DNA from: Halomarina rubra
GTDB taxonomy: Archaea > Halobacteriota > Halobacteria > Halobacteriales > Haloarculaceae
Direction of reading: 5' to 3'
Length of the DNA: 64,000 bases
Assembly: GCF_023699475.1 (NCBI RefSeq)
Contig: NZ_JALXFV010000002.1
Location: 483,316-547,315 of the forward strand
Position 1 is the stretch's first letter; each line of letters starts with the position of its first letter. The position numbers were made by a program, and so were the translations under genes. Of this stretch, positions 33,165 to 61,789 are shown piece after piece. Under the pieces are notes generated by a model. It saw only the letters and a program-made list of their open reading frames with translations. It ran no database searches and was not told the origin of the DNA.

Positions 33165-33260
33165 ACGGTCCGTACGACCGGCCGCCGTATAGGCGTGTGC
33201 GTGGCGGGGGGTGTCTGTGATAGGGAAGTCGTTAGTCAGCACTGCTAACGCGGACGCCTC

Positions 33261-34050
33261 TCAGTTCGTCGTGAGGGTCCACGGGCCGTTCGCGTCGACG
33301 TTCAGGTAGAACATTCCATCAAGACGCGCGGTCGTCGACCCTTCGAACTGGCCGATTTCGTTGAATATCGATACAGCGACGTTTGAGGGGTCGACAGGAA
33401 TCGGCTCGACGATGAAGTTGCTGTCGCCCTCGTGTGTCCCCTGGAACTCCGTCGCGCCGTCGAACTCGAACGGTCCGACGAAGGTCAGTCCCTCGCCGCT
33501 GGCGTCGACTGGCAGCGACTCGGGGCTCACCTCACTCGGCTGTTCGAGCGTGACAGACCACTCGCCGTCCGCGTCGACGTTCAGGTTGTGGCCACCACTC
33601 GCGTTGACGGCTGCGACGGTCGAACCCTCCACACTACCGATGAGGTTCGTCAGCGAGACGTCTTCGTAGGACTCTCCCTCGAGCGTCACGAGCGAGGTGA
33701 TGAAGTTGCTCTCGCCATCGTGAGTGAACTCCGCTGTTATCGGCCCCGGCTGGAGTTGCACGGTGTCGCTCGTCTGGGTGCCACTGCCTTCGAAGGTCTG
33801 AGGGCCGAACGACGCCGTAGCCCCGTCCGTAGTCTGGGTCTCGGTTTCAGATTCGGTCGTCGTCTCGGTCTCCTCGGTCGCTGGGGTGTCGTCGTCGGCC
33901 TCGCTTCCGACCGTTGTGGGGGGGATTACTCGTCGTATCGGTGCTAGCTCCGTCGTCTCCGGGCGTGGTCGTCGACTCCCCCTCGGAACAACCCGCGAGG
34001 ACACTCGATGCGGCGAGACCAACCAGGGACAGGTACGTTCGTCGCTGCAT
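33261..34050 (-). pseudogene. Secreted lipoprotein gene split by a frameshift in a C7 run
   Basis: Translation from ATG 34050 gives MQRRTYLSLVGLAASSVLAG-C21, a lipobox, then an S/T/D-rich linker. In that frame the protein then becomes a basic nonsense tail (HNGRKRGRRR) and stops near 33847. The rest is in the next frame: SEADDDTPATEETETTTESE, then two tandem copies of a domain with the pattern HxGxSNFI ... EGST ... LNVDAxGxW (about 33720-33520 and 33440-33261). The switch is at the G7 run 33918-33924 (C7 on the coding strand); six C would restore one 262-codon frame. It may be a real mutation, phase variation or a sequencing error. Confidence 0.7.
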
Positions 34051-34263
34051 GTGCCAATTTCGACACGACCGGCCGACATTAAACCCCTTGGTATAGAAAC
34101 ACGATTGCTCCACGACGACAATCGGGCTCATTCATCCAACATGGACACTATGCAATTTCGACAGGTTCGGGGACTACTCGGAGTTTTCTTTCCAGCAGCG
34201 CATCTGTGTCGGTCCTGCCACGGAAGGACACCCTTTTCGTACCCGGTGGCCGAAGTCAGGGCA

Positions 34264-36753: not shown

Positions 36754-37248
36754 TCGTCGGCGACTGCCAGCACTCGCCTTCTCCTCGACTCGCAACTCGC
36801 CTCGTCCCCGGAGGGCGTCGGGACCGAGCGCGCGCGAGCGTTCGTCGCCTCGCGAACACGTCATCGTATATAAACACACATCGTTTCGGCGGGTCGGACG
36901 GCGAGAGTTACTCGCCACGAGAGTAACCCACCGCGCCGGCTTTCGGGGGTCTACCCCCACTCTGTAATTTTGCAGACAGTTAACGAACCCGACCGATTTC
37001 GGCCGTCTGAGCGGTGTTCGTCTGACGACCGTCCGCCGCTCGGACGACATAGCCACAAAGCGTATATCCCCCACATTCGGCAGTGAGAGCCGTTCACACG
37101 CGTCTGACATCACCAGAAAGCATTTATAACACCGAGCGTTCGTTTGCGATGTACCCCTACCCATGGTGACAGTACGAAGTACCGACCAATCTGGTGGCCA
37201 TCTGGTCATCGGTCGGGGACCGTGCTAGACCCGACAGGTACGATAACC
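36754..37248 (+). promoter_or_regulatory. S-layer gene promoter region and leader
   Basis: About 495 bases without a conventional gene. TATA-like boxes are at 36867-36875 (TATATAAAC), 37062-37067 (GTATATC) and 37123-37129 (TTTATAA). The last would start transcription near 37150 and give a leader of about 100 bases, within which ATG 37149 opens a 6-codon reading frame (MYPYPW, stop at 37167-37169). Multiple promoters and a long leader are usual for highly expressed S-layer genes. Confidence 0.55.
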
Positions 37249-39987
37249 ATGACAGGAAACAACAAGGTTCGCAGCATCTTCCTCGCTGCGCTGATGGTCT
37301 TCTCCGTCTTCGGCGGGGCTATCGCGCTGACGGGCGGTGTCGCGGCCCAGAGTGCTGCCAATGAGGAATTGGTCGACGGCGACGTCGTCTTCATTGGGCA
37401 GACGGTAACGTATGACAACGAAGGCGACGAGCCTGGTTACACCCTCGTCGACTCCGACGGCCAGCTGGTCAAGGAGTACGGCTCGGGTGAGATCACGCTC
37501 AACATCGACGGTGAGCTGATCACCGAAGGTTCCTACACGCTCCGCGTGCAGGGCACCGACACGGAGATCGACTTCACGGTCTCGACGCAGACCATCTCGG
37601 CGACGTTCGACGGTGAGGACGCCCTCGAAACGACGTCCAACCGTGGTTCCTACCGCGTGACCATCTCGTCGGGCGACCTCCCGAGCGACGTCTCCGTTTC
37701 GGAAATCTTCTCCGACTCGGACGTTGACGGCGACTCGACGAACGGTTTCCAGGTCGACGTCCCGACCGACGGTAGCCTCGACCTCGTCGACACGCTCCCC
37801 GATGGCCTCGAGGAGGGCGAGACGTACGACTTCAACATCGAAGTCGTCGACACTGAAGCGACGGCATCCGCCTCGCTCGGTGTCGGTGTCACGCCTGACT
37901 CCGGTGCGACGTTCACCCAGTCGGCCTACACGGGCGTGCGCGGTGACGTCGTGGAGATCCCCGTCAACATCACGAACGTTGGCAGCTCCAGCACCGTCAC
38001 GGTCACCGTCGGGTCCGAGGACGTGAACTACGAGGCAGAACTGGAAGTCTCCGACGGCAACGGTGACGACCAGGTCGTCATCCTCTTCAACACCTACAAC
38101 ACCCTCGACAACGGCGAGAGCGCGTTCAGCGCTGCCGCATCGGGTGAGGACAGTGTGAACGTCGTTGGTGACGAGCCTTCGCTCGACAACATCCTCTCCG
38201 CGGACGCCGCGTACGACCTTGAGACGCGCATCGACGACGACCTGTCGGACGTCGCAGTCCTCGCGCTGAACGAGGGCTCCATCGACTCGTTCGACATCTC
38301 GACGGCTCCGTCCGCGGAGTCCTTCGGCTCGTCGACCACCGTTAGCGCAGTCGAGAACGTCTCGACGGACACCGGTATGGTCGCCTCGGAAGACTACATC
38401 GTCCACCGCCTCGAGGCCGACGGCATCTTCGGTGCCGTCGAGTCCGCGGGTGGTTTCGGTGACTTCATCGACAGCGACGACGTTACGCTCGAAATCTCCG
38501 AGACGACGGCTAACGTCAACGACAACACGGACTCGGTCGAGCTCAGCTCGAGCGACGTCCAGTTCGTCACCGACGGCGAGGGTGTCTCCTACGTCGTCGT
38601 GAGCTCCGATGTCCTCGGTGAGGACATCGCAACCGGTCAGGAACTCGAGACCTCGCTGACGCTCGGGGCGGACACGAACCTCGTCGCTGAGGAGACGACC
38701 CTCAACGACACGTTCGACTACGTCCCGCGCACGGCCGAGTTCAACACTGAAGAGATCGACGACACGGACACCATCGTTGTCCGCGCAGAGCAGAACGCGA
38801 CCATCTCGGGCGAGAGCTCGGTCGCACCCGGTACCGAATTCAACTTCAACGTTCGCTCGACGACCCGCGACGAGCCCTTCCTCGAGCCAGGTCAGGCAAC
38901 GGTCCAGGAAGACGGCACGTTCGCAGTCGAGTTCGACTTCTCGGGCGTTGCCCCCAACACGACGTTCGAAGCGTCGCTGACGGGTGCAGACCTGATGAAC
39001 GTTAACGACGTCACGGACGTCCCCGGTGTCATCGAGGCACCGCGCACGGCCTCCGTGAGCATCGAGGACCAGGAGACCGACGGTTCGTCCGTCGTCGTCG
39101 CCAGCGCTGAGCTGTCGGACGGTGGCTTCATCACCATCCACGACGCGACGCTGGTCGACGAGGGCGACGCCCTCGGCTCCGTCCGCGGCACCTCCGACTA
39201 CCTCGAATCGGGTTCGCAGTCGGACGTCGAGATCTCCCTCGACGAACCGTACGAGGAGGACGGCACGGCCATCGCCATGCCCCACCTCGACACGAACGGT
39301 AACGAGGAGTACGACTTCGTCACGTCCAACGGGTCGGACGACCTGCCGTACACCTCGAACGGCTCGGCTGTCACTGACAGCGCAGAGCTGACCGTCTCGA
39401 ACAACACGACCGGCAGCGCGTCGGTCACCATCGAGGACCAGACCACGAACGGTCAGTACGTCGTCGTCGCCGAGGCTGCCCTCCCTGAGGGTGGCTTCGT
39501 CACGATCCACGACGGCACGCTCCTCGACGGTGCAACGTTCGAGTCCGTCCGCGGTACGTCCGAGTACCTCGACGGTAACGCGACGGACGTCAACATCACG
39601 CTCGACACGCCGTACACCGAGGACGGCACCGTGATCGCGATGCCCCACCAGGACACGAACGGCAACGAGGCCTACGACTTCGTCAGCAGTGACGGCGAGG
39701 ACGACGGCCCGTACACGTCCGGTGACGGCGGTGCGGCAGTCACCGACGACGCGCAGCTGACCGTTGGCTCGGGCAACGAGTCCACCGACACCGGCACGGA
39801 GCCGACGCCCGGCAACGAGACGACGACGTCGGACGACCCGACCACGGGCACGACCGACGCTCCCGTCACCGACGAGCAGACCGGCACCACGCCCGGTGAC
39901 GACGGTGGCCAGCCCGGCTTCGGTATCGTCGTCGCGCTCATCGCGCTCGTCGCCGCCGCACTGCTCGCAGTGCGCCGCGACAACTAA
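37249..39987 (+). CDS. csg: S-layer glycoprotein with PGF-CTERM anchor
   Basis: This 912-residue protein is probably the main surface-layer subunit. The signal peptide spans residues 1-35 (SIFLAALMVFSVFGGAIALT...GGVAAQ). Beta-rich Ig-like domains with many N-glycosylation sequons follow. Two adjacent copies of a domain with SVSIEDQ, GGFITIHD and AMPHLDTNGNEEYDFV lie at about residues 605-850. The tail is a T/E/D-rich linker, then GQPGFGIVVALIALVAAAL and RRDN, the PGF-CTERM signal. Archaeosortase ArtA cuts this signal and the protein is lipid-anchored; two candidate ArtA genes follow 1.2 kb downstream. ATG 37249 is set by the signal peptide. Confidence 0.93.
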   Translation: MTGNNKVRSIFLAALMVFSVFGGAIALTGGVAAQSAANEELVDGDVVFIGQTVTYDNEGDEPGYTLVDSDGQLVKEYGSGEITLNIDGELITEGSYTLRVQGTDTEIDFTVSTQTISATFDGEDALETTSNRGSYRVTISSGDLPSDVSVSEIFSDSDVDGDSTNGFQVDVPTDGSLDLVDTLPDGLEEGETYDFNIEVVDTEATASASLGVGVTPDSGATFTQSAYTGVRGDVVEIPVNITNVGSSSTVTVTVGSEDVNYEAELEVSDGNGDDQVVILFNTYNTLDNGESAFSAAASGEDSVNVVGDEPSLDNILSADAAYDLETRIDDDLSDVAVLALNEGSIDSFDISTAPSAESFGSSTTVSAVENVSTDTGMVASEDYIVHRLEADGIFGAVESAGGFGDFIDSDDVTLEISETTANVNDNTDSVELSSSDVQFVTDGEGVSYVVVSSDVLGEDIATGQELETSLTLGADTNLVAEETTLNDTFDYVPRTAEFNTEEIDDTDTIVVRAEQNATISGESSVAPGTEFNFNVRSTTRDEPFLEPGQATVQEDGTFAVEFDFSGVAPNTTFEASLTGADLMNVNDVTDVPGVIEAPRTASVSIEDQETDGSSVVVASAELSDGGFITIHDATLVDEGDALGSVRGTSDYLESGSQSDVEISLDEPYEEDGTAIAMPHLDTNGNEEYDFVTSNGSDDLPYTSNGSAVTDSAELTVSNNTTGSASVTIEDQTTNGQYVVVAEAALPEGGFVTIHDGTLLDGATFESVRGTSEYLDGNATDVNITLDTPYTEDGTVIAMPHQDTNGNEAYDFVSSDGEDDGPYTSGDGGAAVTDDAQLTVGSGNESTDTGTEPTPGNETTTSDDPTTGTTDAPVTDEQTGTTPGDDGGQPGFGIVVALIALVAAALLAVRRDN

Positions 39988-46861: not shown

Positions 46862-49738
46862 GTGATCGACCGAGACCGCATCGAGCGGTACCTCGTTGGT
46901 CACCCAGATGCCTCAGTTGCTGAGGTCCTCGGGGCACTCGAACTCCCTCCCAGCGAAGCTGGGGTTGTCGAGGACCTCGTCGGGGACGATGAAGGGGAGA
47001 CCGCTATAACTACCGGCCAGATTCCGGTCGACGAGCAGTGCTGTCTCCCACGCTGCCACCAACCGCGCGTCAACCCCCATGCGAATAGTCTGTGCGAGGA
47101 CCACCACCCAGGTGACACGACCCGTGGTGGTGATGGCTCACTCGACGACTTCGCTAGTCACGACGGCGACGACGGGTCAACGGAACCGTCGGCTGCTCGG
47201 CTCGCCGAGGCCGCAGCCGTTGCCGGCCACGAACCCACCGGCGATGTCGACGAGAATGAGGGTGATCTCGAAGCTGCGGCGGTCGATCAGCTGACCGCAC
47301 CAACAGACGACGAGGATGTAGACTTCCTCGCTGCAGCGATGGGTGACCCAGACGCGAGCGCAGCGTACGCGAGCGACGTCGACGACGAGTCAGACCCGAT
47401 GCCGACTGCGGGCGGGAGTTCTCGCCCGGTCGGCGTTCTCCCCATCGCCCAACTCGACGCGCTCCCACCGGAGGAGCGGCGACGTCTGGCCCACAAACGG
47501 GGACTCTACTGGCCATCGACTGACGAAGTGCGCGAACGGCTCTCCGAGACGCTCCACGAGGTGATGCGCCACGAGGACGACCGCGTCATCGACGCCCCGA
47601 CGAGTGCCGGGAAGTCCTACACCGTCGCGACGACCAACTGGGGCTCACTGGAGTTCGAAGACGTCACCGGCGACCGCTCGGTCATCCACCTCTCGAAGAC
47701 TCGTGATGCTCGCGACGAAGCGATTCGGGCAGCCCGGTCGGTCGACAACGACCACTTCGTCCTTCGCGCCCGCCACGAGGCTTGCCCCGTTGCGGGCGGC
47801 CAGTACGACCCACCAGAGAACCCCGAGAAAGACGTCGACTACACGCCACTCACCGTTGACGGGAAACCCGTCTCCGACTGGATTGGCATGATGTGCGACG
47901 GACGGGGCCTCCCGTTCAGCGCAGTCCACGACCGAGTCACCGCCGTCCTCGACCAGGACGTCCACAAGCTGCCGTGCTGTCGGGGGGAACCAGACGAGGA
48001 CTTCCCGACGATGAAGCCCGGCTCGAAGGGTTGTGACGCACTCAAGCAGTGGGACCGCTTCCGTGAGGGTGACCACGATCTTGTCTTCGCGACCCACAAC
48101 TTCGCGCACGTCCCGGGGGTGCGAACCGAGACCAACGTGGTGTTCGACGAGGAGCCGGACTTCGCCGCCGACCTCTCGACCGACCGTGTTCGACGGGCAG
48201 TGACCGCGTTCCTCCAGCGGTCCGCTGGCGACCGGATGGACGCGGCGTTACTCACCTACGAGGACCTCGTCCACGTCGCCCGTCACGGAATCGGCGCAGG
48301 GACCGCCGGTGACCAGGACGACACTCGTGAGGTCATCGAGGAGCAGCTTGCGTTTGAGCCTGATCTGGAGTGGTTCTTCGAGGTTGGTGACGCCCATACG
48401 CTCGCCCCGGCGCTCGCGAGGGCCATCTACTATGCCGAGGACCGGGCCAACGGTCGGCGCGTCGGCAAGACGCGCTACCAGCCACCGCGGTTAGACCAGA
48501 ACGCTCGCGAGGAAGAGGGATGGAACGCGTCATGGGTGACGGTGGTCCTCGACGACTCCAACGAGATCCGCCGGGTCCGGACAACGCCCGACCTCGAAGT
48601 GGCCCGCAGCGTCGTCGGCCTCGACGCTCACCCTGCACTCCCGGTGTGGCAAGCGAACACCCTCCCGCACATGCACAAGAAGACAGTCCTCGAACGCGAG
48701 GAGCGTCAGCTGTGGCGGCGCTACGAACGTGGCCTCCGCGTCGTCCAGGTCGGTGAGCACACCCACCCGCTCGCCAGTGGTGAGTACTTCAGCTGGGACG
48801 CCACCCACGCGCTGGTCGACCAGTTGTGCCAAGAGTTCGGCGAGGAATTCTCGACGGCCATCACGGCGTCCAGCGTCGAGTCCGACCTGGAGGACATCAT
48901 GGTTGACGTCGGGATCGAGGAGCCCCAGACGATGCACTACGGCGAGGAGAAATCGAGGAACGACTTCGGCGACGAACCGGTCGGGTTCGTCAACGGCTGC
49001 ATTGACCCCGGTGACGACTTCGTCGTCGACCTCCTCGCCGAACTCGACCTGGACGCCACACCGGAGCGCTCGGAGACGGAGTGCGACTACTGCGGGGGCG
49101 ACGGCTGCCCGGAGTGTGACGGCACGGGTCGCAAGCGCGCCCACGGTCGGGGATTCGAAGGCAGTGATGCGGACACCGCCGCCGAGATCCTCGCGTCCGT
49201 CCGGGAGAACCACACCGCCCAGGCAGCGGGTCGGTGGGCTCGCAACCCCGACGATCCCTCGTCGACGGCCACGGTGTTCGTCCGCACCGATGCGATGCCG
49301 GTCGGATTCGCCGACGTCCAGGTCCCGGGCGTCGAGTGGATCTGGACCGAGAAGCAGCGTCGCATCGTTGAGGCCGTTCGCAGTGCGTCGGGACAGGTGA
49401 CCGCTCGCGAGGTCGCTGACCAGACCGGCGTCTCGAAACGTCACGTCCTCGACGTACTCGACCGCCTCGCCGACCACGGTACTGTCGTCGGCGTTCCCAA
49501 CGAAGGGCCGAACGGGGCGACGCTGTATGCCGAGAACGGCGTTCCACACTCTGGGGTCGTTGACCTCGACAGTCGCGAAGAGCCACGTACGGGAGTTACC
49601 AGTACGTGGTCCCTCGTGATTCGCGAACCGTCCCTGTCTGGGGTGGGGGAGGTTGTGGGTGATACGTCCCCAGAGGTCCGTGATTCCGACTCGTCAGACG
49701 AGGCTGCGATTTCAGGTGGGGGTGAACCGCCCGAGTAG
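46862..49738 (+). CDS. Viral zinc-finger helicase/ATPase with winged helix
   Basis: This is a 958-residue protein. The N-terminal zinc ribbon has CCLPRCHQPRVNPHANSLCE. Helicase-like motifs follow: DAPTSAGKSYTVAT (Walker A, about residue 240), VVFDEEPDF (motif II, DEEP) and AAGRWARN (motif VI-like). A C..C zinc knuckle (CDYCGGDGCPECDGTGRK) lies between motif II and VI. A C-terminal winged helix is at about 838-890 (SGQVTAREVADQTGVSKRHV). This layout suits a replication initiator or helicase. The GTG 46862 follows SD GGAGGT. It is the first gene after the tRNA. The 3' end holds the inverted repeat CCACGTAC/GTACGTGG (49583-49609). Confidence 0.75.
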   Translation: MIDRDRIERYLVGHPDASVAEVLGALELPPSEAGVVEDLVGDDEGETAITTGQIPVDEQCCLPRCHQPRVNPHANSLCEDHHPGDTTRGGDGSLDDFASHDGDDGSTEPSAARLAEAAAVAGHEPTGDVDENEGDLEAAAVDQLTAPTDDEDVDFLAAAMGDPDASAAYASDVDDESDPMPTAGGSSRPVGVLPIAQLDALPPEERRRLAHKRGLYWPSTDEVRERLSETLHEVMRHEDDRVIDAPTSAGKSYTVATTNWGSLEFEDVTGDRSVIHLSKTRDARDEAIRAARSVDNDHFVLRARHEACPVAGGQYDPPENPEKDVDYTPLTVDGKPVSDWIGMMCDGRGLPFSAVHDRVTAVLDQDVHKLPCCRGEPDEDFPTMKPGSKGCDALKQWDRFREGDHDLVFATHNFAHVPGVRTETNVVFDEEPDFAADLSTDRVRRAVTAFLQRSAGDRMDAALLTYEDLVHVARHGIGAGTAGDQDDTREVIEEQLAFEPDLEWFFEVGDAHTLAPALARAIYYAEDRANGRRVGKTRYQPPRLDQNAREEEGWNASWVTVVLDDSNEIRRVRTTPDLEVARSVVGLDAHPALPVWQANTLPHMHKKTVLEREERQLWRRYERGLRVVQVGEHTHPLASGEYFSWDATHALVDQLCQEFGEEFSTAITASSVESDLEDIMVDVGIEEPQTMHYGEEKSRNDFGDEPVGFVNGCIDPGDDFVVDLLAELDLDATPERSETECDYCGGDGCPECDGTGRKRAHGRGFEGSDADTAAEILASVRENHTAQAAGRWARNPDDPSSTATVFVRTDAMPVGFADVQVPGVEWIWTEKQRRIVEAVRSASGQVTAREVADQTGVSKRHVLDVLDRLADHGTVVGVPNEGPNGATLYAENGVPHSGVVDLDSREEPRTGVTSTWSLVIREPSLSGVGEVVGDTSPEVRDSDSSDEAAISGGGEPPE

Positions 49739-49808
49739 CTGCTCTCGAACGGTTGCGATTCGCTCGTCGAACAGTCGCTGCTATACCTTTCTCACAAATT
49801 GCCGGGAT

Positions 49809-50160
49809 TGTTAGACAGAGAGCGTGGGTCTACCACTTGGTTGTCTAGCGGTGAACCAATCCACAGCAGAACTAACTGGCGCTGTCACGTCTGCATAGAA
49901 GAAGCCATCGGACAGCGTCAATGGGCTGTCAGAGGCACTACGTCGGCTGCCCGATGGCCGGACACACCTGCAGGACGTGCCGGTACTCTTCCACCTTCAC
50001 GGTGTCCTCCGATTTTCGAAGGGTGTGTGTCCACTTCACAGTGCAGCCTTGGAATGTATAAATATTCTAGTTATTCTTCTAGGTTTACGAATGTCTGACA
50101 AGTGTAGAATTATAAACATCCTAGGAATCGACCTGATACACTCGCGGCACGTGTCTAACA
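49809..50160. mobile_element. Inverted-repeat-bounded AT-rich element, no clear gene
   Basis: Ends TGTTAGACAGAGAGCGTG (left) and CGGCACGTGTCTAACA (right) match the ends of the 2543-3258 element, including inner right-end similarity (GATACActCGCGGCACG). The interior differs and has no convincing open frame, only an AT-rich tract at about 50050-50120. It separates the helicase gene from the regulator gene within the provirus. Confidence 0.45.
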
Positions 50161-50232
50161 GCTGAGTCACACCACTTCGGGGTGAAAGAAAGGTCCAACA
50201 AACGCTACAGAGGACGCTCTCTTGTCTATATC

Positions 50233-50268
50233 CACAATACGTAAATATTGTGTACAGGAAACTTATAC
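50233..50268 (+). promoter_or_regulatory. Dyad operator candidate and TATA box before the winged-helix gene
   Basis: CACAATA-CGTAAA-TATTGTG (50233-50252) is a perfect 7-bp inverted repeat. Ten bases downstream lies the TATA box CTTATAC (50262-50268), and the ATG at 50298 is about 33 bases after the box centre. A regulator bound at the dyad would lie next to the BRE/TATA elements, so it could control access of TBP/TFB. Confidence 0.5.
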
Positions 50269-50297
50269 GTGACAAATCCTCAGATGCTATTGCTGGC

Positions 50298-50612
50298 ATG
50301 AGTGACCTAACAGCCCGCAATGAGTCCGATTCGTGGCTCACCATCGGTCTCGAAACGACCGCCGACGTCGTTGCACAGCTCCCCCCAAGCGCCAAACTGG
50401 TGCTGTCATACCTTCGGGACAACGGCCCGTGCAGTCGGGCGGAGACAGAAGACGACCTGTGCCTTCCGACGTCGACGACGAAACACGCATTGACGGAACT
50501 GAAAGATGAGGACCTCGTCGAGGATCGACCGTCGATGGAGGACGGTCGGGTCACCGTCTACAACATCGTCGCCGGTGTTGCTGAGGACGTCGAGTCCCCT
50601 ACCGTTGCGTAA
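50298..50612 (+). CDS. Winged-helix regulator of the provirus (repressor candidate)
   Basis: This is a 104-residue protein from ATG 50298 (MSDLTARNESDSWLTIGLET). The winged helix spans AKLVLSYLRDNGPCSRAETE, DLCLPTSTTKHALTELKDED and a wing DGRVTVYNIV, similar to MarR-type or PhiH1-repressor-like haloarchaeal proteins. Its upstream dyad and its position between early and late modules suggest control of lysogeny, which is inference. The frame to 50250 is discounted because it runs through the promoter. Confidence 0.72.
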   Translation: MSDLTARNESDSWLTIGLETTADVVAQLPPSAKLVLSYLRDNGPCSRAETEDDLCLPTSTTKHALTELKDEDLVEDRPSMEDGRVTVYNIVAGVAEDVESPTVA

Positions 50613-50734
50613 TCTTCGGCCAATTATCGGCTGAACCCATGACTGTATATGGTGATACTCCTTGGTGACTGGCAAGACCGCCAGGAAGCCACCGAACGGT
50701 GGTGTCCTTTTCAGCAATCGCTGTCTCCAGCGTC

Positions 50735-51277
50735 ATCGTGCCCAATCACTCACTCGCCGCCGACGAGGGCCTGCGTGTCCCGTCGGACCCGACTCGCGTC
50801 TTCAAGTGCGTGGTCGCGTCGAACGACCTCGTCTGCCAGGAGTGCTACCGCCGGCTCGTCCAGCGCGAGGCGTTCGACCACGAGACCGGCTACTCCAACC
50901 GCGACATCCTCGCGTTCGTCGACGAGGAGATCCCCGAGGAGTCGACGCGGTTCGATATCCTCGACCGGGAGTACTACCTTCGTGAGCGTATCGCCGACCG
51001 GCTCGAACGCGCAACGAGCGAGCACGGGACGACGGCTGCCTGTTGGAACTGCGGAACGACGTCACCGCGACGATCTCCACCGACCCGGTCAGCAGTTGAG
51101 GCCCGGCGGGCGGCGACTGGGTTGACCGTCACGCTCGACGAGTACGGCGTCGATCACGACTGGGTCCGCCTCGTCGACGAAGTTGAGGAGCTGAAGAGGA
51201 CACCACGGTACGCCGGGAACGACTTCGAGACGTTCCGGGCGGCGGTCGCGGCTTCCATCGGCGCGGTCCATCGCTGA
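50735..51277 (+). CDS. Zinc-binding viral orphan
   Basis: This is a 180-residue protein. It has two CxxC pairs: DLVCQECYRRLV near residue 30 and AACWNCGTTSPR near residue 105, likely a split zinc site. The sequence between is helical (YYLRERIADRLERATSEHGT). The C-terminus is helical and hydrophobic at AAVAASIGAVHR. GTG 50735 (VPNHSLAADEGLR) is chosen; a GTG at 50699 is possible. No known family; such small Zn proteins are common in haloarchaeal viruses. Confidence 0.6.
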   Translation: MVPNHSLAADEGLRVPSDPTRVFKCVVASNDLVCQECYRRLVQREAFDHETGYSNRDILAFVDEEIPEESTRFDILDREYYLRERIADRLERATSEHGTTAACWNCGTTSPRRSPPTRSAVEARRAATGLTVTLDEYGVDHDWVRLVDEVEELKRTPRYAGNDFETFRAAVAASIGAVHR

Positions 51278-51290
51278 TCACTCGCCATTC

Positions 51291-51515
51291 ATGATTCCAA
51301 TCGAGACCCCTTCCGGAGAGATACGACTGGCCGAGCTCGTCGATTCGCACACCGAGGCAACCATCGCGAGCGTCGAGCAGATTTACCACGTCGTCGTTGA
51401 CGGAGTTCGACTCCGGGTCCACGAGGACGACGTTGCGAGCCTCACGAACGCCGAGGACGTCGTCGACCCGACCCGCCGCGCGCCTCGACAGGCCCCGATG
51501 ACCACGGCGGACTGA
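51291..51515 (+). CDS. Small viral orphan protein
   Basis: This is a 74-residue protein (MIPIETPSGEIRLAELVDSH, then YHVVVDGVRLRVHEDDVASL). The central strands resemble a small beta-barrel or SH3-like fold, but this is not reliable. It lies 13 bases after the zinc-binding orphan and is probably in one transcript with it. No function can be assigned. Confidence 0.55.
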   Translation: MIPIETPSGEIRLAELVDSHTEATIASVEQIYHVVVDGVRLRVHEDDVASLTNAEDVVDPTRRAPRQAPMTTAD

Positions 51516-51638
51516 CCTCCGACGCGCGAGGGATCCCTGTCAACACGAACTGGTACACACCACCGAACACCGAGACGGCGTCTGTCTTTCGCTCAGTCCT
51601 GAGACCTCTGTGAGACACGTCATCCCCACGCCGTCACC

Positions 51639-51694
51639 GCGCCAGCAATCTGGTTCGCTCTTCGCGAGCGCGGGTTCGACTCCCGGCTGGTGCA
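51639..51694 (+). other. tRNA-like relic (acceptor and T-arm, no complete D/anticodon arms)
   Basis: GCGCCAG at 51639-51645 pairs with CTGGTGC at 51687-51693 (one G-T pair), giving a 7-bp acceptor stem. A T-arm with loop TTCGACT (matches TTCRANN) closes with CGGG/CCCG. Between them is one hairpin, GCTC-TTCGC-GAGC. The whole is only 56 bases, too short for a tRNA. It may be a decayed tRNA gene or old attachment site just before a provirus gene. Confidence 0.4.
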
Positions 51695-51717
51695 TCCGCA
51701 CTCGAACTTCTACTCCA

Positions 51718-52050
51718 ATGCCCAGTATCGACTACACAGCCGCCAGGTCCCCGTTTCGAGAGCGCCCTATCGAGCGCCTCAAGTGCGAGGTCCTCGCTGC
51801 GCTCCTCACCTTCGTGCCGCACCGCTACAACAACCACACCCGCAAGATCGTCACCATCGTCCTCGCGGTCGGCTGGATGACGATGACGGTCGGGATCTCC
51901 GCGAAGCTCGCGGTCGCTACCCCGACCTACGGGATGCTCACCGCCGCCGTCTTCGCGATTATCGGCCGGATGTGGGACATCGAGGTCGGCGCACTCGGAG
52001 CGCGAGCAGCAGCGGAGACCGAGGCGACCTCCAAGAAGGAGGACGACTGA
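51718..52050 (+). CDS. Small viral membrane protein (holin-like size)
   Basis: This is a 110-residue protein from ATG 51718 (MPSIDYTAARSPFRERPIER). Two hydrophobic segments (IVTIVLAVGWMTMTVGISAK and TYGMLTAAVFAIIGRMW) are flanked by charged ends, with acidic C-terminal tail (ETEATSKKEDD). Size and topology resemble a holin, but no experimental family link is known. The TGA overlaps the next ATG. The longer frame from 51610 includes the tRNA-like structure and is rejected. Confidence 0.62.
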   Translation: MPSIDYTAARSPFRERPIERLKCEVLAALLTFVPHRYNNHTRKIVTIVLAVGWMTMTVGISAKLAVATPTYGMLTAAVFAIIGRMWDIEVGALGARAAAETEATSKKEDD

Positions 52051-52358
52051 TGGAGGACTTCGAGCTCATGGTCGGTGTCTACCTGGAGCTCACTACGCCG
52101 GGCGATCTCGTCGACGCCGAGCACGAGCATCCGGCCATCGACTACGTCGTCGACGGCCCGGTCGGCCAGCGAGCGGTCACCATCGGAGCCGACGTCGACG
52201 TCGAGGCACTCGCGACGGCCGCCGCAGCGGCCGACCTTCCGGCGACGGTGATCGTCCCGCCAGGGACGCTCGTCGAGGACACCTCGGTCGACGTCCTGGA
52301 GGCCGACCCCGAGGCGACGTTCGACCGGACCTCCTCGTGGCGCGACCTCGCGGTCTAA
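52050..52358 (+). CDS. Viral orphan protein
   Basis: This is a 102-residue acidic protein (MEDFELMVGVYLELTTPGDL, then GQRAVTIGADVDVEALATAA and ADLPATVIVPPGTLVEDTSV). It looks like a compact alpha/beta fold. The ATG overlaps the preceding stop (TGATG), so it is translated together with the membrane protein. Unknown role. Confidence 0.58.
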   Translation: MEDFELMVGVYLELTTPGDLVDAEHEHPAIDYVVDGPVGQRAVTIGADVDVEALATAAAAADLPATVIVPPGTLVEDTSVDVLEADPEATFDRTSSWRDLAV

Positions 52359-52365
52359 TCCTACT

Positions 52366-52449
52366 ATGGCGAAGAAACTCACCTTCGAGAACGGCGACCC
52401 GGTCGACGAAGAGCCCGACGAAGATGACGAGGAGGCCACCGAGGCATGA
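52366..52449 (+). CDS. 27-residue acidic micro-protein
   Basis: ATG 52366 opens a 27-codon frame: MAKKLTFENGDPVDEEPDED, then an acidic tail. It ends TGA at 52447-52449 overlapping the next ATG (ATGA). The tight coupling on both sides supports a real small gene, but it could be a translational bridge only. Confidence 0.45.
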   Translation: MAKKLTFENGDPVDEEPDEDDEEATEA

Positions 52450-52700
52450 ACCCATTCGTCGAGTTCTTCCGCGATCCGGTCGGAGCGAGCGCCGTCCTGG
52501 CGTACGCACTCGTCCTCGTCGCTGCGCTCATCGCGACATGGTACATCCTCGGGCGAAACCTTCTGACACTGTTCGTCCGGTGGAACAAGGAAGGATGGCA
52601 GAGTCCGCCCGCGACATGGGCGGCGCGGGCCATCGCGGTCCCACTCATCCTCGCCGTCGACGCGCTGCTCTTTGGGGCGCTCGTCTGGCTCCTCGCATGA
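52446..52700 (+). CDS. Small two-helix viral membrane protein
   Basis: This is an 84-residue protein. Segments ASAVLAYALVLVAALIATWY and AARAIAVPLILAVDALLFGA are separated by a charged loop (FVRWNKEGWQSPPATW). Start ATG 52446 overlaps the micro-protein stop. Together with 51718 it gives a pair of small membrane proteins in one coupled run, which could form a lysis or envelope-modification cassette; this is inference. Confidence 0.6.
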   Translation: MNPFVEFFRDPVGASAVLAYALVLVAALIATWYILGRNLLTLFVRWNKEGWQSPPATWAARAIAVPLILAVDALLFGALVWLLA

Positions 52701-52710
52701 CCGGAACCGG

Positions 52711-52722
52711 GTATAAAATATA
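52711..52722 (+). promoter_or_regulatory. Likely promoter of the packaging and head operon
   Basis: TATAAAATATAT is the strongest TATA match in the provirus part. It lies about 44 bases before the ATG at 52761 and right after the small-gene run, so it probably drives the late genes. Confidence 0.5.
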
Positions 52723-52760
52723 TGAACCGTTGTGTGAACTCCGAGTAGTTCTGCCCCCCC

Positions 52761-53471
52761 ATGAGTAGCAACCTCTCTGGCTCCCGTGAGTACCGGGTTA
52801 CGCTGGCACTCAAGTGGGCCTACCTCGACCACCTCTCGGTCCCGGAGATCGTCGAGCGCTTCGAGGAGGAGGGAATCGGCTCGCCCGCCGAGTCAACGGT
52901 CCGGAAGTACCTCGACGAAGCGCCGAAAGACGAGGTCCTCGAACAAATCCGTGAAGAGCACGTCGACGCCCGGCTGCAGATTGCCGACCGTGAAGAAGAG
53001 TTGTTCCGACGCGCTCGCGACGACGAGCACCGGGCAACGGAGGACGTCGCCGTCAAACGGGTCGTTCCCCAGACGAAGCCCGTCCGTGAGAGCGACTCGC
53101 CGGTCTACATGACCGGCTGGGAGTTCGTCAAGGACGAGGTAGAGCGTCCTGAGTGGGCCACTGAGGACGACGTCATCATCCGCTTCATCGACGAGGAGGT
53201 CGAACTGCTCGCCGGCGATCAACGCCCGCTGCGGAGCTTCGACGGTTCACCCAAGTACACCACCGAGTTCGTCGGTCTGGAGCGCGACGTTCCCGAGCTG
53301 CAGGGCCGGTCGACGGCCCGGTACGAGCAGTCGAAGCACCTGGCAGCGAAGGGCGAGGTCCTCGGCATCTACGAGGAACACATCAACCTCGACGCGTCGG
53401 TCGAGGAGAGCCTCGACGAGGACACCGTCTCCGAGCTCCGGGACGTCTTCGAAGAGATCCGCGAGCACTGA
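52761..53471 (+). CDS. HTH protein ahead of the packaging genes
   Basis: This is a 236-residue protein. The N-terminal HTH reads VTLALKWAYLDHLSVPEIVE, RFEEEGIGSPAESTVRKYLD. The middle is acidic and rich in Arg/Glu helices (EEELFRRARDDEHRATEDVA), and the C-terminus is a coiled helix (SLDEDTVSELRDVFEEIREH). It could be a DNA-recognition component of packaging or a late-gene regulator. A second small HTH protein lies directly before the large terminase. Confidence 0.6.
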   Translation: MSSNLSGSREYRVTLALKWAYLDHLSVPEIVERFEEEGIGSPAESTVRKYLDEAPKDEVLEQIREEHVDARLQIADREEELFRRARDDEHRATEDVAVKRVVPQTKPVRESDSPVYMTGWEFVKDEVERPEWATEDDVIIRFIDEEVELLAGDQRPLRSFDGSPKYTTEFVGLERDVPELQGRSTARYEQSKHLAAKGEVLGIYEEHINLDASVEESLDEDTVSELRDVFEEIREH

Positions 53472-53532
53472 CCGACTCCCACCCGGCCCCGCCGCCGGCT
53501 GGCGATTAACACCCACAACCTGAGAGTTTTCC

Positions 53533-54759
53533 ATGCATCTGGACGAGCTACCCGAACCCGTACGAGAGACGACCGTCCACCCGGACGAACTGGAGGTCGA
53601 CGGCGACAACCCCAACGAGATGAGCGACGAGATGTTCTCGTTGCTCTGTGACCGCATCGAGTCACGCGGCTGGGTCGGCAACGCCATCATCACCGACACC
53701 GCCGGCGTCATTGCTGACGGGCAACACCGGTGGATGGCAGCGAAGGAACTCGGCCTCGAGGAGATCCCAGTCAAGCAGTACGACCTGGACGATGCCGACC
53801 GCCGCCTGTGGCGACAGGAGCTCAACAAGATCTCCGGCGAGCACGACAAGAAGCGCGATGCCCTGGAGTTCGACCAGCTGGCTGACGAGGGGCTGGGAGA
53901 GGAGGTGTTCGACCTGCTCGACGCCCAGGACGAAGACCTCGACGACTACCTCGAGCTGATCCACCTCGGCCCGTCGTTTGTGGATACACCACAGGAGTTC
54001 AACTCGGACCCCGACGTCCACTTCATGGATTGTGTTGAGGGGATGCGCGAACACCTCGATGACGAATCCGTCGACTGCCTCATCACTGACCCGCCGTACG
54101 GAATGGCCTATCACTCCGACCGAAAGGGACGGAACGACAGACCCCGAGATGGCAAGCGCGTCAAGGAATGGGACCCAATCGAAGGTGACCAGTCTCTCGA
54201 CGAAGCCCTCGACCTGATTCGAGCCGCGCTTGCAGAAGCGACACGGGTCCTGGGCGAGGGTGGCCACGCCTACATCTTCTGTGACTGGCGAGGCATCCCG
54301 GAGATCCAACCGCTCGTCGACGAGTTCCTGACAGTGAAGAACGTCCTCGTGTGGGATAAGGGGTCAATGGGGATCGGCGATCTCGAAAACAACTGGGGCT
54401 ATTCACACGAGTTCGTCATCTTCGCCACGAAGGGTGACCGTGGCCACGAACTCACCACGGCGATACGGAACGTCTTGGAGCATGGCCGAATCCCGCGAGA
54501 GGAGTACGAACACCCGACACAGAAGCCGACGTCGCTGCTGACCGATATCGTCAAGGTCGCGACGAAGCCGGGAGACACCATCCTCGACCCGTTCATGGGG
54601 AGCGGGACGACAGCCGTTGCTGCGGTTCAGAATAACCGCGAGTACGTGGGATTCGAACTAGACGAGGAGAACTATCGAGGCGTCATCGAGCGCCGCCTTG
54701 GTGAGGCGGAGCGGCAGATCGCCTCGTCAACCAACTGCGAGGATGAGGAGGCCGAGTGA
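53533..54759 (+). CDS. ParB-like domain fused to DNA methyltransferase
   Basis: This is a 408-residue protein. The N-terminal ParB-type nuclease-like domain (about 1-140) has IADGQHRWMAAKEL, with the motif form of GEHR. The methyltransferase follows: DPPYG at 186-190 (motif IV) and LDPFMGSGTT at 351-360 (motif I), in the order of beta-class N6-adenine or N4-cytosine enzymes. Such fusions are common in phages. It may protect viral DNA from host restriction. The TGA overlaps the next ATG. Confidence 0.9.
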   Translation: MHLDELPEPVRETTVHPDELEVDGDNPNEMSDEMFSLLCDRIESRGWVGNAIITDTAGVIADGQHRWMAAKELGLEEIPVKQYDLDDADRRLWRQELNKISGEHDKKRDALEFDQLADEGLGEEVFDLLDAQDEDLDDYLELIHLGPSFVDTPQEFNSDPDVHFMDCVEGMREHLDDESVDCLITDPPYGMAYHSDRKGRNDRPRDGKRVKEWDPIEGDQSLDEALDLIRAALAEATRVLGEGGHAYIFCDWRGIPEIQPLVDEFLTVKNVLVWDKGSMGIGDLENNWGYSHEFVIFATKGDRGHELTTAIRNVLEHGRIPREEYEHPTQKPTSLLTDIVKVATKPGDTILDPFMGSGTTAVAAVQNNREYVGFELDEENYRGVIERRLGEAERQIASSTNCEDEEAE

Positions 54760-55208
54760 TGCGCTCGGAGCTTCGCGAACGGCGGGAGAAGACGTGGGAC
54801 CTGCTGGTCGTGAAGGGCCTGGATTACGGCGACGTCGTCGAGCGCCTCGCAACCCAGTACGACGTCACCGCGTCAGCCATCGAGTCTGATATCCACCGGA
54901 TGGACGACTGGCTTCCGAAGCTCGACGCCGGGAGCACGTCCTCGGGCCTCTCGCGACTCCGGGAGCTCCGACAGAACCGCCAGCGATACCAACAGCTGGC
55001 CGTCGAGGCCCGCCGCGAGGGGGACATCGACCAGGAGCTCCGCGTCCGTCGACGTATCGACCAGGCCATCGACCTCGACGTCTCGCTCGCCCAGTCACTG
55101 GGCCTCACCGTCCGCGAACCTGAGGAGGTCACCGTCGCCGTCGACGAAGACGTCGACGAGCTCCGTCGGGAGATCCGTTCGGCCATCGAGTACCAGGAGG
55201 CATCCTGA
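54759..55208 (+). CDS. Terminase small subunit candidate
   Basis: This is a 149-residue protein. The N-terminal HTH is KTWDLLVVKGLDYGDVVERL, ATQYDVTASAIESDIHRMDD; helices with heptad-like spacing follow (LRELRQNRQRYQQLAVEARR) and an acidic tail. Small size, HTH, coiled middle and position immediately before terL suit TerS, which recognises viral DNA and forms a ring. ATG 54759 overlaps the preceding TGA. Confidence 0.7.
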   Translation: MRSELRERREKTWDLLVVKGLDYGDVVERLATQYDVTASAIESDIHRMDDWLPKLDAGSTSSGLSRLRELRQNRQRYQQLAVEARREGDIDQELRVRRRIDQAIDLDVSLAQSLGLTVREPEEVTVAVDEDVDELRREIRSAIEYQEAS

Positions 55209-55210
55209 TC

Positions 55211-56953
55211 ATGTCTGCCGCGCTCGACAACGTCGCGACCATCCTCCGCGAGAGCGACACCCCGTTCCACGACCTCAACGAGGCGCTCTCACCGGAGGAG
55301 AAGCGACGCCTGTGTGCGCCCTCTTCGGATTCCGAAGACGACACGCCGTTCTGGCTGTTCGCCAACCTCGTCTCGCTGAACTACCTGGACGTCCGAGCGA
55401 CCGAGTGGGAGCACGTTCCCGAGCACGCGATGGACTGGCATCGCCAAATCCACTCGAACCCGTTGAACATGATTCTCGCCGGGCGCAAGCACACCAAGAC
55501 GACCTGGTCGCTGGCTGAAATCATGTACAAGTGTCAGTACATCCAGGGCTTCCAAGCGCTGTACTGGGCGAATACCGAGGGGCAGGTCACCGAGCGGATG
55601 GACGAGTTCGAAGAGATGTGCGAGGAGAACCCTTGGCTCAACAACCTCGTCACCGACGCCGGCGAGTCCTGTGGGGCGCTCAAGCGGAAGATGTTCCGCA
55701 ATAAGTCTCGCCTGCTGACGACGTGGGTCGAGGGGAGCGCCGAAGGGGGCCACGTCAACATGAGCGTCGGCGACGACCCGCTCAAGGAGGTCGGTGGGAT
55801 TCCCGACGAAAAGATCGAGTCATGGTACTCGAAGGTCGTCGAGCCAATGCTCAACCGGAACGGAATCCACGTCATCGTCGGCACTCGGAAGCGACCCAAC
55901 GACGTCTACGAGATCCTCCGGACGAAGAACGCCGACAACGACGAGTTCGACAACCTGCCGAGCTACAATCTCATGGAGTACCCGGCCATCCGCGAGGTCT
56001 GGCTCGACAAGTACGGAGCTGATCGTCCGGGTGACATCGCCTCAGAGGACCTCTACACCACCGTCGAGGACCCGACGCTTGCCAGAGCGTTGGGCATCTC
56101 CGGCGACGAGGTCTCGGTCCTGTGGCCGGATGGCCGGCCCGCGAACTGGCTCCGACGGAAGCTGGGGGCGCAGGGGAAACCCAACTTCGACCGCGAGTTC
56201 TGCATGGTGTTCTCGAACGTCGCCGACGCCATCATCAAACGGGCCGACATTGACGACCACTGCTCTACTCAGGCCAGCCCGCCGTGGGACATCGACCCGC
56301 TCGACTCACCGTTCCAGCGTGTGGTTGTCGGCGTCGACCCGGCGGGACCGAGCGGCGGCGACTCCTCGTCGTACGTCTCGCTCGGGGTTCGCGAATCGGG
56401 GGTTCGTGATATCCTCGACGTCTACAACGCCGAGTCGATCAATCCGTCTCGCTTCAAGCGGAAACTGCAGGAGCTCGACGAGCGGTACGCCCCCTCCGAC
56501 ATCGTCATCGAGTCCAACGGGATGCAGACGTACGTTGTCGAGGACGCCGTCGAGTTCGACCGCTCGCTCCCGATCAAGGGCGCGAACACGTCTGGCCGGA
56601 AGCACTCATGGGAGGACGGCATCCCGCGCATCGCTCACCGGGTCGCCAACGGTGGCTACCAGTTCTACCGTGAGGACACCGAGGGTCACACGGAGCAACT
56701 GATCGACGCGCTGACGACGCTGGTGATGGACGAGAACGACAAGCTCCAGGGCCACACGCCCGACCCGGTGTCGGCGCTGTACCAAGCCGAGAAGGCCATC
56801 GACGCGAAAGTCCCGACCGGGACTGCTGACCTTCGCGATACAGCGGAAACGCCCTCTCCCGATGACCCGGACTTCGACCAGGAGGCGTGGCGGAACTCGG
56901 AGATCGGGCAGGCCGTCGATGACCTACGCACTCGGTTGGGTGGTCGCCGATGA
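55211..56953 (+). CDS. terL: Terminase large subunit
   Basis: This 580-residue motor-nuclease packages viral DNA. The ATPase domain has LAGRKHTKTT (Walker A-like, about 89-98) and VNMSVGDDP (about 182-190, Walker B-like). The nuclease domain has an RNase H-like first Asp in VVVGVDPAGPSGGDSSS (Asp376) and IVIESNGM (Glu434). The Walker A is a deviant form with Arg/Lys, as in other TerL proteins. Start ATG 55211 is three bases after the small subunit stop. Confidence 0.92.
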   Translation: MSAALDNVATILRESDTPFHDLNEALSPEEKRRLCAPSSDSEDDTPFWLFANLVSLNYLDVRATEWEHVPEHAMDWHRQIHSNPLNMILAGRKHTKTTWSLAEIMYKCQYIQGFQALYWANTEGQVTERMDEFEEMCEENPWLNNLVTDAGESCGALKRKMFRNKSRLLTTWVEGSAEGGHVNMSVGDDPLKEVGGIPDEKIESWYSKVVEPMLNRNGIHVIVGTRKRPNDVYEILRTKNADNDEFDNLPSYNLMEYPAIREVWLDKYGADRPGDIASEDLYTTVEDPTLARALGISGDEVSVLWPDGRPANWLRRKLGAQGKPNFDREFCMVFSNVADAIIKRADIDDHCSTQASPPWDIDPLDSPFQRVVVGVDPAGPSGGDSSSYVSLGVRESGVRDILDVYNAESINPSRFKRKLQELDERYAPSDIVIESNGMQTYVVEDAVEFDRSLPIKGANTSGRKHSWEDGIPRIAHRVANGGYQFYREDTEGHTEQLIDALTTLVMDENDKLQGHTPDPVSALYQAEKAIDAKVPTGTADLRDTAETPSPDDPDFDQEAWRNSEIGQAVDDLRTRLGGRR

Positions 56954-57258
56954 CGGCCACGCCGACGCTCAAGGGGCCGCTCGACATGATGCAGTTCGAC
57001 TCCTCAAACCTGCGGTCGGGGCTGTATGACTCGGGCGTGATGGACCTCTATATCCGATTCCATGGCGACCCGACCGACCGCATCTACCTCTACCAGTTCG
57101 TCCCACAGCAGATCTGGGAGGGGCTGAAGTCGGCGTCCAGCCACGGCAGCTACCACGCAGAGCACATCAAGTGGCGGTTCCCGTACGAGCAACTCTCGTC
57201 GTCGGACTGGCCTCAACAGGGGCGGTCGACGACCGAGGCGGCGTTCCTCAAGGCGTAA
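56950..57258 (+). CDS. KTSC-domain protein
   Basis: This is a 102-residue protein. The core YDSGVMDLYIRFHGDPTDRI, then YLYQFVPQQIWEGLKSASSH and GSYHAEHIKWRFPYEQ, matches the KTSC domain pattern (strand-strand-VP-helix-S-G-strand), a small domain found in phages and fused to lysyl-tRNA synthetases in some bacteria, of unknown function. It overlaps the terL stop (ATGA) and lies 9 bases before portal, so it belongs to the packaging operon. Confidence 0.72.
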   Translation: MTATPTLKGPLDMMQFDSSNLRSGLYDSGVMDLYIRFHGDPTDRIYLYQFVPQQIWEGLKSASSHGSYHAEHIKWRFPYEQLSSSDWPQQGRSTTEAAFLKA

Positions 57259-57267
57259 CCCAGACTC

Positions 57268-58683
57268 ATGGCATCCTTTACCGACATACTCAGAGAGCAC
57301 GAGCGACGTATCGAACCTCGCGAGAAAGCGGGCGAGACAACCATCGGCGGCGAGTCCGTCGACCTCGAGACCAGCGAGACGGTCAGTGTCAGCGACGACG
57401 GTTTCCTCGGCACGTCGACGAACGGCGTCCCACGCGGTCGGGAGGCGTTCGAGGCCCGCGAGTTGGGCCAGACGGCCATCGCGGAGTCCATCAAGAACAT
57501 CATCATCTCGCAGCTGACCGGCGGCGAGCTCGCGTTCCCGATGGAAGACGACGTCGAGGAGGTCCCCGACGCCATCGCCGAACTTCGCTCGGTGTTCCGA
57601 TCGCTGCTGACGGGGCCACACTACGCGGAGGACGACTGGGACGACCTGGTCACCGCTGCCGTCTCTGACATGGCCGACATCGGCAACGCCTATTGGGAGG
57701 TCATCGGGACCACCAGCCAGTCATTCCCGGTGGGGTCGTTCAAACCTGTCCCGGCGCTGACGGTGAAGCACAACGTCGACAAGCACGGCGGGTTCGCCGA
57801 GGACGGTCCAGCGTACTACCAGGCTCCAGTCGGCCAGCACGGCGAGGGCTGGTCGACGGCGGGTGCAACCCCACAGAAGCTGGACCGCGAGGACCTCGTC
57901 TCCTTCCGGTGGCCCGGCTCGCGACGTGCCGGTCGGGTCTACCCGATGAGTCCGATGATGCAGGTTCGCGAGTGGATCGAACTCATCGTCGACTCGACGG
58001 CCCACCACGGGCGCTACTACTCGGACAACGAGATGCCCGCTGGCTTCCTGCAGGTGATGCAGGCTGGCGACCACGACGTCCAACAGATCAAGTCGAAGAT
58101 TCAGGCCGCTGCTGGCGATCCCCGTTCGGTGGAGGTCATCGGCGGCGAGGGGCCGGCGAACTGGATCGAAATGGGCGGAACCGCCGTCAACCTCGACGTG
58201 ATCGAGGAACAGCGCTGGTTCATCAACCTCGTCCTTGGCGCGTTCGGTATCCCCAAGCAGGAACTCGCGCTCGTCGACGACGTCAACCGGAACACCTCGG
58301 AGGCACAGGCGTCGATGATCTACCGGCGCGTCACCCGGCCGCTCGCCGACGCCATCTGTGACGCCGTCACCAATCAGGTGTTCGCTCGCTTCGACGCCTA
58401 CGAGTCGCTCGGTCGACCGTTCGGGCTCGACATAACGTACTCGGACCCCGAGCAGGAGCGGGCTCGAGAAGAGCAGCTCCGCGAGCGGTTCACCTCGGGG
58501 GCGCTCCCGTACGCAGAGTACCGACAGCAACTGGGCGAAGATCCTGGTGATACGACCATCGAGGTGAACGGTGAAACGGTCGACTACGGCGACGTCCCGT
58601 TCCCGCTCGTGAAGGCACTCATCGGTGACGCCCACAACGGCGATGATTCGCTCGATGAGGAAGGTGATAGAGAGAACAGATAG
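57268..58683 (+). CDS. Portal protein
   Basis: This is a 471-residue protein forming the dodecameric DNA entry at one capsid vertex. Typical elements are the early helix SIKNIIISQLTGGELAFPME, the wing region SDMADIGNAYWEVIG, DLVSFRWPGSRRAGRVYPMS and the stem/crown RWFINLVLGAFGIPKQELAL and NRNTSEAQASMIYRRVTRPL. Acidic C-terminus. It has the HK97/SPP1-like size and follows terL in the standard order. Confidence 0.87.
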   Translation: MASFTDILREHERRIEPREKAGETTIGGESVDLETSETVSVSDDGFLGTSTNGVPRGREAFEARELGQTAIAESIKNIIISQLTGGELAFPMEDDVEEVPDAIAELRSVFRSLLTGPHYAEDDWDDLVTAAVSDMADIGNAYWEVIGTTSQSFPVGSFKPVPALTVKHNVDKHGGFAEDGPAYYQAPVGQHGEGWSTAGATPQKLDREDLVSFRWPGSRRAGRVYPMSPMMQVREWIELIVDSTAHHGRYYSDNEMPAGFLQVMQAGDHDVQQIKSKIQAAAGDPRSVEVIGGEGPANWIEMGGTAVNLDVIEEQRWFINLVLGAFGIPKQELALVDDVNRNTSEAQASMIYRRVTRPLADAICDAVTNQVFARFDAYESLGRPFGLDITYSDPEQERAREEQLRERFTSGALPYAEYRQQLGEDPGDTTIEVNGETVDYGDVPFPLVKALIGDAHNGDDSLDEEGDRENR

Positions 58684-58688
58684 ATGGG

Positions 58689-58913
58689 TCAGTAGCGGAC
58701 GGTGTTAGACACGAATCCGAGGACTGACAGGACATCTATCGCGAATAGCATTCCTCCAAACGCCATCCAATTGTCGATGAAGTCGCTTGCGAAGGAGCTC
58801 CCGGCCTCTGAGGGCCCAGCGGAGAACAGAGTCAGCAGTACGACCGTGAAGAGCACGTACACGAGATTCCCAATGAAGATACCCATTACGACGCCCCGTC
58901 CTGAACCACTCAT
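58689..58913 (-). CDS. Antisense small membrane protein within the head operon
   Basis: This is a 74-residue protein on the reverse strand. The first helix is VVMGIFIGNLVYVLFTVVLL, and a second is FGGMLFAIDVLSVLGFVSNT. It is bounded by the portal stop (6 bases away) and its own AT-rich promoter region (58914-58960). GC is clearly lower than that of flanking genes. It resembles a moron, a prophage cargo gene expressed in the lysogen, but its role is unknown. Confidence 0.65.
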   Translation of the reverse strand: MSGSGRGVVMGIFIGNLVYVLFTVVLLTLFSAGPSEAGSSFASDFIDNWMAFGGMLFAIDVLSVLGFVSNTVRY

Positions 58914-59007
58914 TGAATTGTGTAGTTAATTATAGCTGATAACTCTTATCCCCCGATGACCGTCCGGTTGGCCGCCGGACGCGAGGGAAAACGGCCACGC
59001 TCTTTTC

Positions 59008-60093: not shown

Positions 60094-60095
60094 CC

Positions 60096-61391: not shown

Positions 61392-61408
61392 CCACGAGGG
61401 CTTTTGAC

Positions 61409-61786
61409 ATGAACATCGACTACCCAGGAGCTGCAGCAGCCGTCACCATCGCGACCGGGACCACCCTCGCGGTTGAAGACGGTGCGGTCGACGTACCCGA
61501 CGAGCACGCCGAGCGTGTTATCGAACGGTTCACCGAGCGCTACGGCGTCACGTACGACGACGAGGGGAACCTCGTCGACGCGGACAGTGGTGACGAGGTG
61601 GCCGAGACAGACGCGGTCGACCCGGCCGCCGCCACTGACGGAACGCTCGGCGACCTCGAGGACGCGCTCGCGACTGGCGAGTACGACGACATCCTCGACG
61701 AGGTTGCGGCTGCTGAGAAGGCAGGCGACGACCGTGATGGAGCGTACGAACGCATCGACGACCGCCGGACGGAGCTGGAGGCGTAA
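61409..61786 (+). CDS. Acidic capsid-associated orphan
   Basis: This is a 125-residue acidic protein (MNIDYPGAAAAVTIATGTTL, then VPDEHAERVIERFTERYGVT). The first 45 residues look like a small strand-helix domain seen in proteins next to capsid genes of phages. The rest is a helical acidic tail (ALATGEYDDILDEVAAAEKA). It starts 17 bases after the capsid stop. It may decorate the capsid or act as a head fibre. Confidence 0.6.
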   Translation: MNIDYPGAAAAVTIATGTTLAVEDGAVDVPDEHAERVIERFTERYGVTYDDEGNLVDADSGDEVAETDAVDPAAATDGTLGDLEDALATGEYDDILDEVAAAEKAGDDRDGAYERIDDRRTELEA

Positions 61787-61789
61787 GCG

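Follow-up and report, generated by a model that had tools for sequence, protein, structure and literature searches.

Among the lipoproteins that haloarchaea export by the Tat route, LAGC is the most frequent lipobox, with 12-21 residues between the twin arginine and the lipobox, according to the excerpted text of PMC2945643. Length changes in poly-C and poly-G tracts are the basis of slippage-driven contingency loci in bacteria. A 2025 review, in the excerpt of PMC11868660, reserves the label of phase variation for loci that switch both ways and do so faster than a minimum rate, and denies it to a locus without spontaneous reversion, with a change from 8C to 7C as its example. No clear precedent for simple-sequence phase variation in archaea appeared in the literature searched, which comprised titles and the starts of abstracts. 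The haloarchaea studied so far are polyploid, their chromosome copies are equalised by gene conversion, and their mutation rate is low (excerpt of PMC4056108). In Halobacterium NRC-1, one-base differences in poly-C/G tracts were considered likely sequencing errors in the part of PMC11834397 that reports on them.

The gene analysed here lies on the minus strand of the window, the whole 64,000-nt stretch of the Halomarina rubra genome that was analysed, and is divided between two reading frames. The lipobox frame starts with the ATG at 34050, begins MQRRTYLSLVGLAASSVLAGC, and ends at the stop codon at 33849-33847 after 67 residues. Its intact 5' part (33925-34050) encodes a Tat-type twin-arginine signal, the lipobox LAGC and the start of a Thr/Asp/Glu-rich linker, and the 16 residues between the second arginine and the lipobox cysteine agree with the Tat lipobox rule as given in the excerpt of PMC2945643. 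The rest of this product (33847-33917) is a basic out-of-frame tail with its stop. The mature part is encoded in the shifted frame, which is free of stops from 33923 to 33261 (220 aa, minus strand) and contains an acidic linker and two tandem repeats, repeat 1 at 33534-33809 and repeat 2 at 33264-33509. On inspection of the sequence, seven G on the plus strand at 33918-33924, that is, a C7 run on the gene strand, form the meeting point of both frames. A single four-base step at this run gave one frame of 262 aa with zero internal stops. These translations bore out the original prediction that a lipobox part and a two-repeat part of one gene stand in different frames, that a change of one base joins them, and that the halves are otherwise intact, the mature part having 220 codons without a stop.

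Because the two frames overlap widely, the mature frame having no stop as far back as 34127 and the lipobox frame extending to 33847, stop codons do not fix the position of the frame change. Codon statistics placed it at nucleotides 120-150 of the gene (33931-33901, 3-nat interval), and the C7 run, at nucleotides 127-133, is the sole long homopolymer within this interval. The lipobox and mature frames meet at the C7 run or within about 20 nt of it; the run had been proposed as the exact junction, and its place inside the interval agrees with this, while "exactly" has to be widened to that distance. No start codon for the mature frame was found between the C7 run and repeat 1. Separate initiation of the mature part was rejected, as the in-frame starts (34121, 34079, 34022, 34004) all precede the run and the product would be unexported.

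Relatives of the mature part were found across the order in 110 of 392 genomes, within the family in 16 of 146, and within the genus in 2 of 8; the matches at all three levels came from other species only. Since the mature part has clear homologues, the locus is a split gene and not a chance open reading frame. Several of the closest relatives are intact lipoproteins with a twin-arginine start, LAGC and an acidic linker (e.g. L144 and L110), and L144, in genome G149, has an uninterrupted 337-aa frame with MDRRKYLSTAALAAVGLAGC. Other relatives, such as L005 and L113, begin in a Tat-like manner but lack the cysteine, and in yet others the repeats form the end of a longer protein. Plasmid records contained 20 distant haloarchaeal relatives, every one below 60% identity and several annotated as polysaccharide deacetylase, and the search of viral contigs returned no relatives. 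The gene encodes a predicted surface lipoprotein of the haloarchaeal Tat type.

A Pfam scan of the protein at E<=1 gave only QPE at 0.76, which is under its cut-off and unrelated, and no match to the PPC profile; the repeats matched no Pfam or NCBIfam family above cut-off, and the protein matched no PDB sequence at E<=1. An AlphaFold2 model from four sequences showed two beta-sandwiches, one for each repeat, with a mean pLDDT of 81 and a pTM of 0.76, the five models ranging from 81 to 30; internal direct repeats also mark out repeat 2. When the fold of repeat 1 was compared with known structures, the best Z score was 9.5 over 86 residues to 9ues, a Thermococcus subtilisin entry, followed by 8.8 to 1nqj and 8.1 to 5sv5, on a scale where many beta-sandwich folds reach 7-8. 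The modelled repeat 1 resembles PPC and collagen-binding domains, which are a common kind of fold, so any function read from this resemblance is putative.

Other features of the window are a gene (37144-39987) whose large, secreted surface product has DUF7282 domains and a PGF-CTERM anchor and, by Pfam and PHROG matches, a likely head-tailed provirus (46862-62979). The provirus includes genes for a DNA methyltransferase (53533), the terminase large subunit (55211), a portal protein (57268) and the major head protein (60096), and its left part (51769-52700) holds very short overlapping open reading frames that change frame.

The lipoprotein gene has as its neighbours a gene for a small predicted membrane protein on one side and the gene for an Obg-type GTPase on the other. 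The GTPase gene was kept in all eight genomes of the genus (8/8) and its upstream neighbours in most, and the lipoprotein gene was absent from this locus in all seven others (7/7). In the closest genome of the genus, with a 95% identical GTPase, the alignment breaks off at window position 33202 and resumes at 34217 after about 20 nt. The stretch of about 1 kb that is missing there and in the other genomes (33203-34216) has a G+C content of 0.61 vs 0.66 for the window. No long terminal repeats were found at its ends; an 11-nt sequence occurs there twice in direct orientation, at 33174 and 34065. A tree of 42 sequences grouped the protein of the window with five f5 sequences (support 99/97), its closest relatives being intact lipoproteins of another family, and put the copy from the same genus (L003) in a separate clade. 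Because the locus is empty in the seven other genomes and the closest relatives belong to another family, the gene looks like a dispensable, acquired one, and horizontal transfer would be the simplest reading of its presence.

The C7 run was then set among the other C/G runs of at least 7 in the genome. A pattern search gave 149 seven-base matches, corresponding to 134 distinct runs, one gap-touching run included; 11 are longer than 7. The window served to train the codon model by which all were classified. Eighty-nine runs (87 C7 and 2 C8) lie inside one uninterrupted coding frame. Another 37 lie beyond coding sequence or at its margin, among them the window's own run, which the model places in this group since the 5' coding part is short, so that similar cases can be missed. 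The remaining eight have a frame change on the same strand within 90 nt: five, at C7 runs (L064, L185, L189, L200, L202), were ordinary gene boundaries by eye, and three (L032, L076, L094) touch assembly gaps. The run at L104 was flagged as frame-changing in a partial pass over 86 runs, and its open reading frame reads through. Fifteen candidate runs were read frame by frame and homology was tested for the lipoprotein gene alone; within that scope, it is the only frame break at a run of at least 7 that is backed by homology. A second Tat lipoprotein gene of the same genome (L096) has a G7 run just past the lipobox (1498-1504), in frame. None of the 61 ORF rows inspected for relatives (21 + 40, duplicates included; 1 of 22 loci in the first set gave no match) had a C/G run of at least 7, and the longest run was 6, in eight rows.

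On balance we favour a real and recent frameshift, in which an acquired lipoprotein gene was disabled when the C run of its linker changed in length by one base. A Tat/lipobox lipoprotein gene with an acidic linker and two PPC-like beta-sandwich repeats would have arrived by a presumably recent horizontal transfer between the small membrane-protein gene and the GTPase gene, and the length change would recently have knocked it out. From the recorded allele, only the 67-residue product, consisting of the signal, the lipobox cysteine and the short out-of-frame tail, would be exportable. The two repeat domains would be left unexported, and the loss may be tolerated if the gene is accessory.

A frameshift of this kind is consistent with the frame being broken relative to intact homologues such as L144 of G149 and L110. 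In at least four genomes (G338, G320, G377 and G402) the family copies likewise fall into two frames, so loss in this repeat-protein family is not rare. These split relatives are L139, L140, L142 and L143, of which the last two seem to share their break, and the open reading frames that hold their best matches have no run of at least 6. What speaks against a real frameshift is that the 220 codons carry no second lesion and no positive sign of decay. As no stop has arisen in 220 codons, either the break has to be young or the gene is still in use: in a simulation of neutral substitution, the chance of zero stops fell from 0.72 at 0.02 changes per site to 0.47 at 0.05 and 0.21 at 0.1, and a divergence of up to about 0.1-0.2 would fit the stop-free state.

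The strain may instead carry an uninterrupted gene whose run was assembled at the wrong length, and such a consensus error would yield a sequence identical to that of a real frameshift. We regard this as a serious, though less probable, origin of the break, and ranking mutation ahead of error is a matter of judgement. The assembly comprises 16 contigs and contains short N gaps. Among 131 stretches around runs (394 kb), 3 of 9 distinct N gaps lay within 30 nt of a run of at least 7 (G8, G8 and G9), against 2.4% of bases (P about 0.001), which indicates that G/C runs trouble the assembly. The gaps at L032, L076 and L094, of 23-33 N, abut their runs (G8, G8 and G9) within genes or beside them. 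An error would also account for two otherwise undamaged halves, and it has counterparts in the resequenced Halobacterium tracts (PMC11834397, in excerpt) and in the expectation that homology-confirmed singleton frameshifts are sequencing errors rather than genuine indels (PMC3711429, in excerpt). Against it, 87 C7 and 2 C8 runs read inside one coding frame, which suggests that the assembly is mostly right at C7; the window contains zero N, and where the frame seemed to change at five other C7 runs, these proved to be gene boundaries by eye.

The headline of the original prediction was phase variation, that is, replication slippage at the C run switching the lipoprotein on and off. A predicted surface lipoprotein is the right kind of product, the run is close to the 5' end, the frames differ by one unit with both halves intact, and a one-unit length change at the run toggles the full-length frame. 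A C7 run is, however, unexceptional in length in a genome where 89 of 134 such runs lie in one coding frame, and the second Tat lipoprotein gene with G7 after its lipobox stays in frame. The tract is not kept in orthologues (longest C/G run of 6 among the 61 ORF rows), the gene is missing from most of the genus, and polyploidy, gene conversion and a low mutation rate oppose fast one-base switching in haloarchaea (PMC4056108, in excerpt). Because C7 is commonplace in the genome and relatives have no run of at least 7, a maintained switch is disfavoured; the gene is also a lineage-specific insertion. We consider it very doubtful that slippage switches this gene, and equally doubtful the fuller version, in which an acquired archaeal lipoprotein is switched at the linker C run and gene conversion among polyploid chromosomes fixes the state of each lineage. 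Of the three origins first offered for the change (recent, switchable or an assembly error), recent mutation and assembly error fit better, and the switchable one is unsupported.

It is scarcely credible that a +1 shift of the ribosome, or slippage during transcription, at the C run yields some full-length protein: the lipobox frame does read consecutive CCC codons and then a further C, and the direction of the shift fits, but the close relatives are uninterrupted and have neither the run nor a conserved slippery site in the 61 inspected ORF rows, and programmed frameshifting was rejected on the latter count. In bacteria, m1G37 restrains +1 errors at proline codons.

The acquired lipoprotein gene is probably broken by an ordinary, recent frameshift, or else by a consensus error, and either would be a matter of annotation only, with the gene as a possible pseudogene. 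If slippage switching were true, it would be simple-sequence phase variation in an archaeon, and would raise the question of how a one-base switch works in a polyploid cell.

Compared with bacterial poly-C/poly-G slippage contingency loci, the locus is alike in being a surface-protein gene one unit out of frame at a C run. It is unlike them in that 133 other runs of the genome are as long as its own or longer, its tract is not conserved, and one allele is known. With the poly-C/G tracts of Halobacterium NRC-1 (PMC11834397, in excerpt) it shares a one-base difference in a C/G tract of a haloarchaeal hypothetical gene, although several resequenced strains were compared there and one assembly here. 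The predicted fold of repeat 1 is like the beta-sandwich of PPC and clostridial ColG collagen-binding domains, with which the protein has no sequence match, so a shared function is at most predicted. While the gene breaks frame about 22 residues past the cysteine, unlike the haloarchaeal LAGC Tat lipoproteins described in the excerpt of PMC2945643, it has the same twin-arginine start, a 16-residue spacing that falls within theirs, the LAGC lipobox and an acidic, Thr-rich linker.
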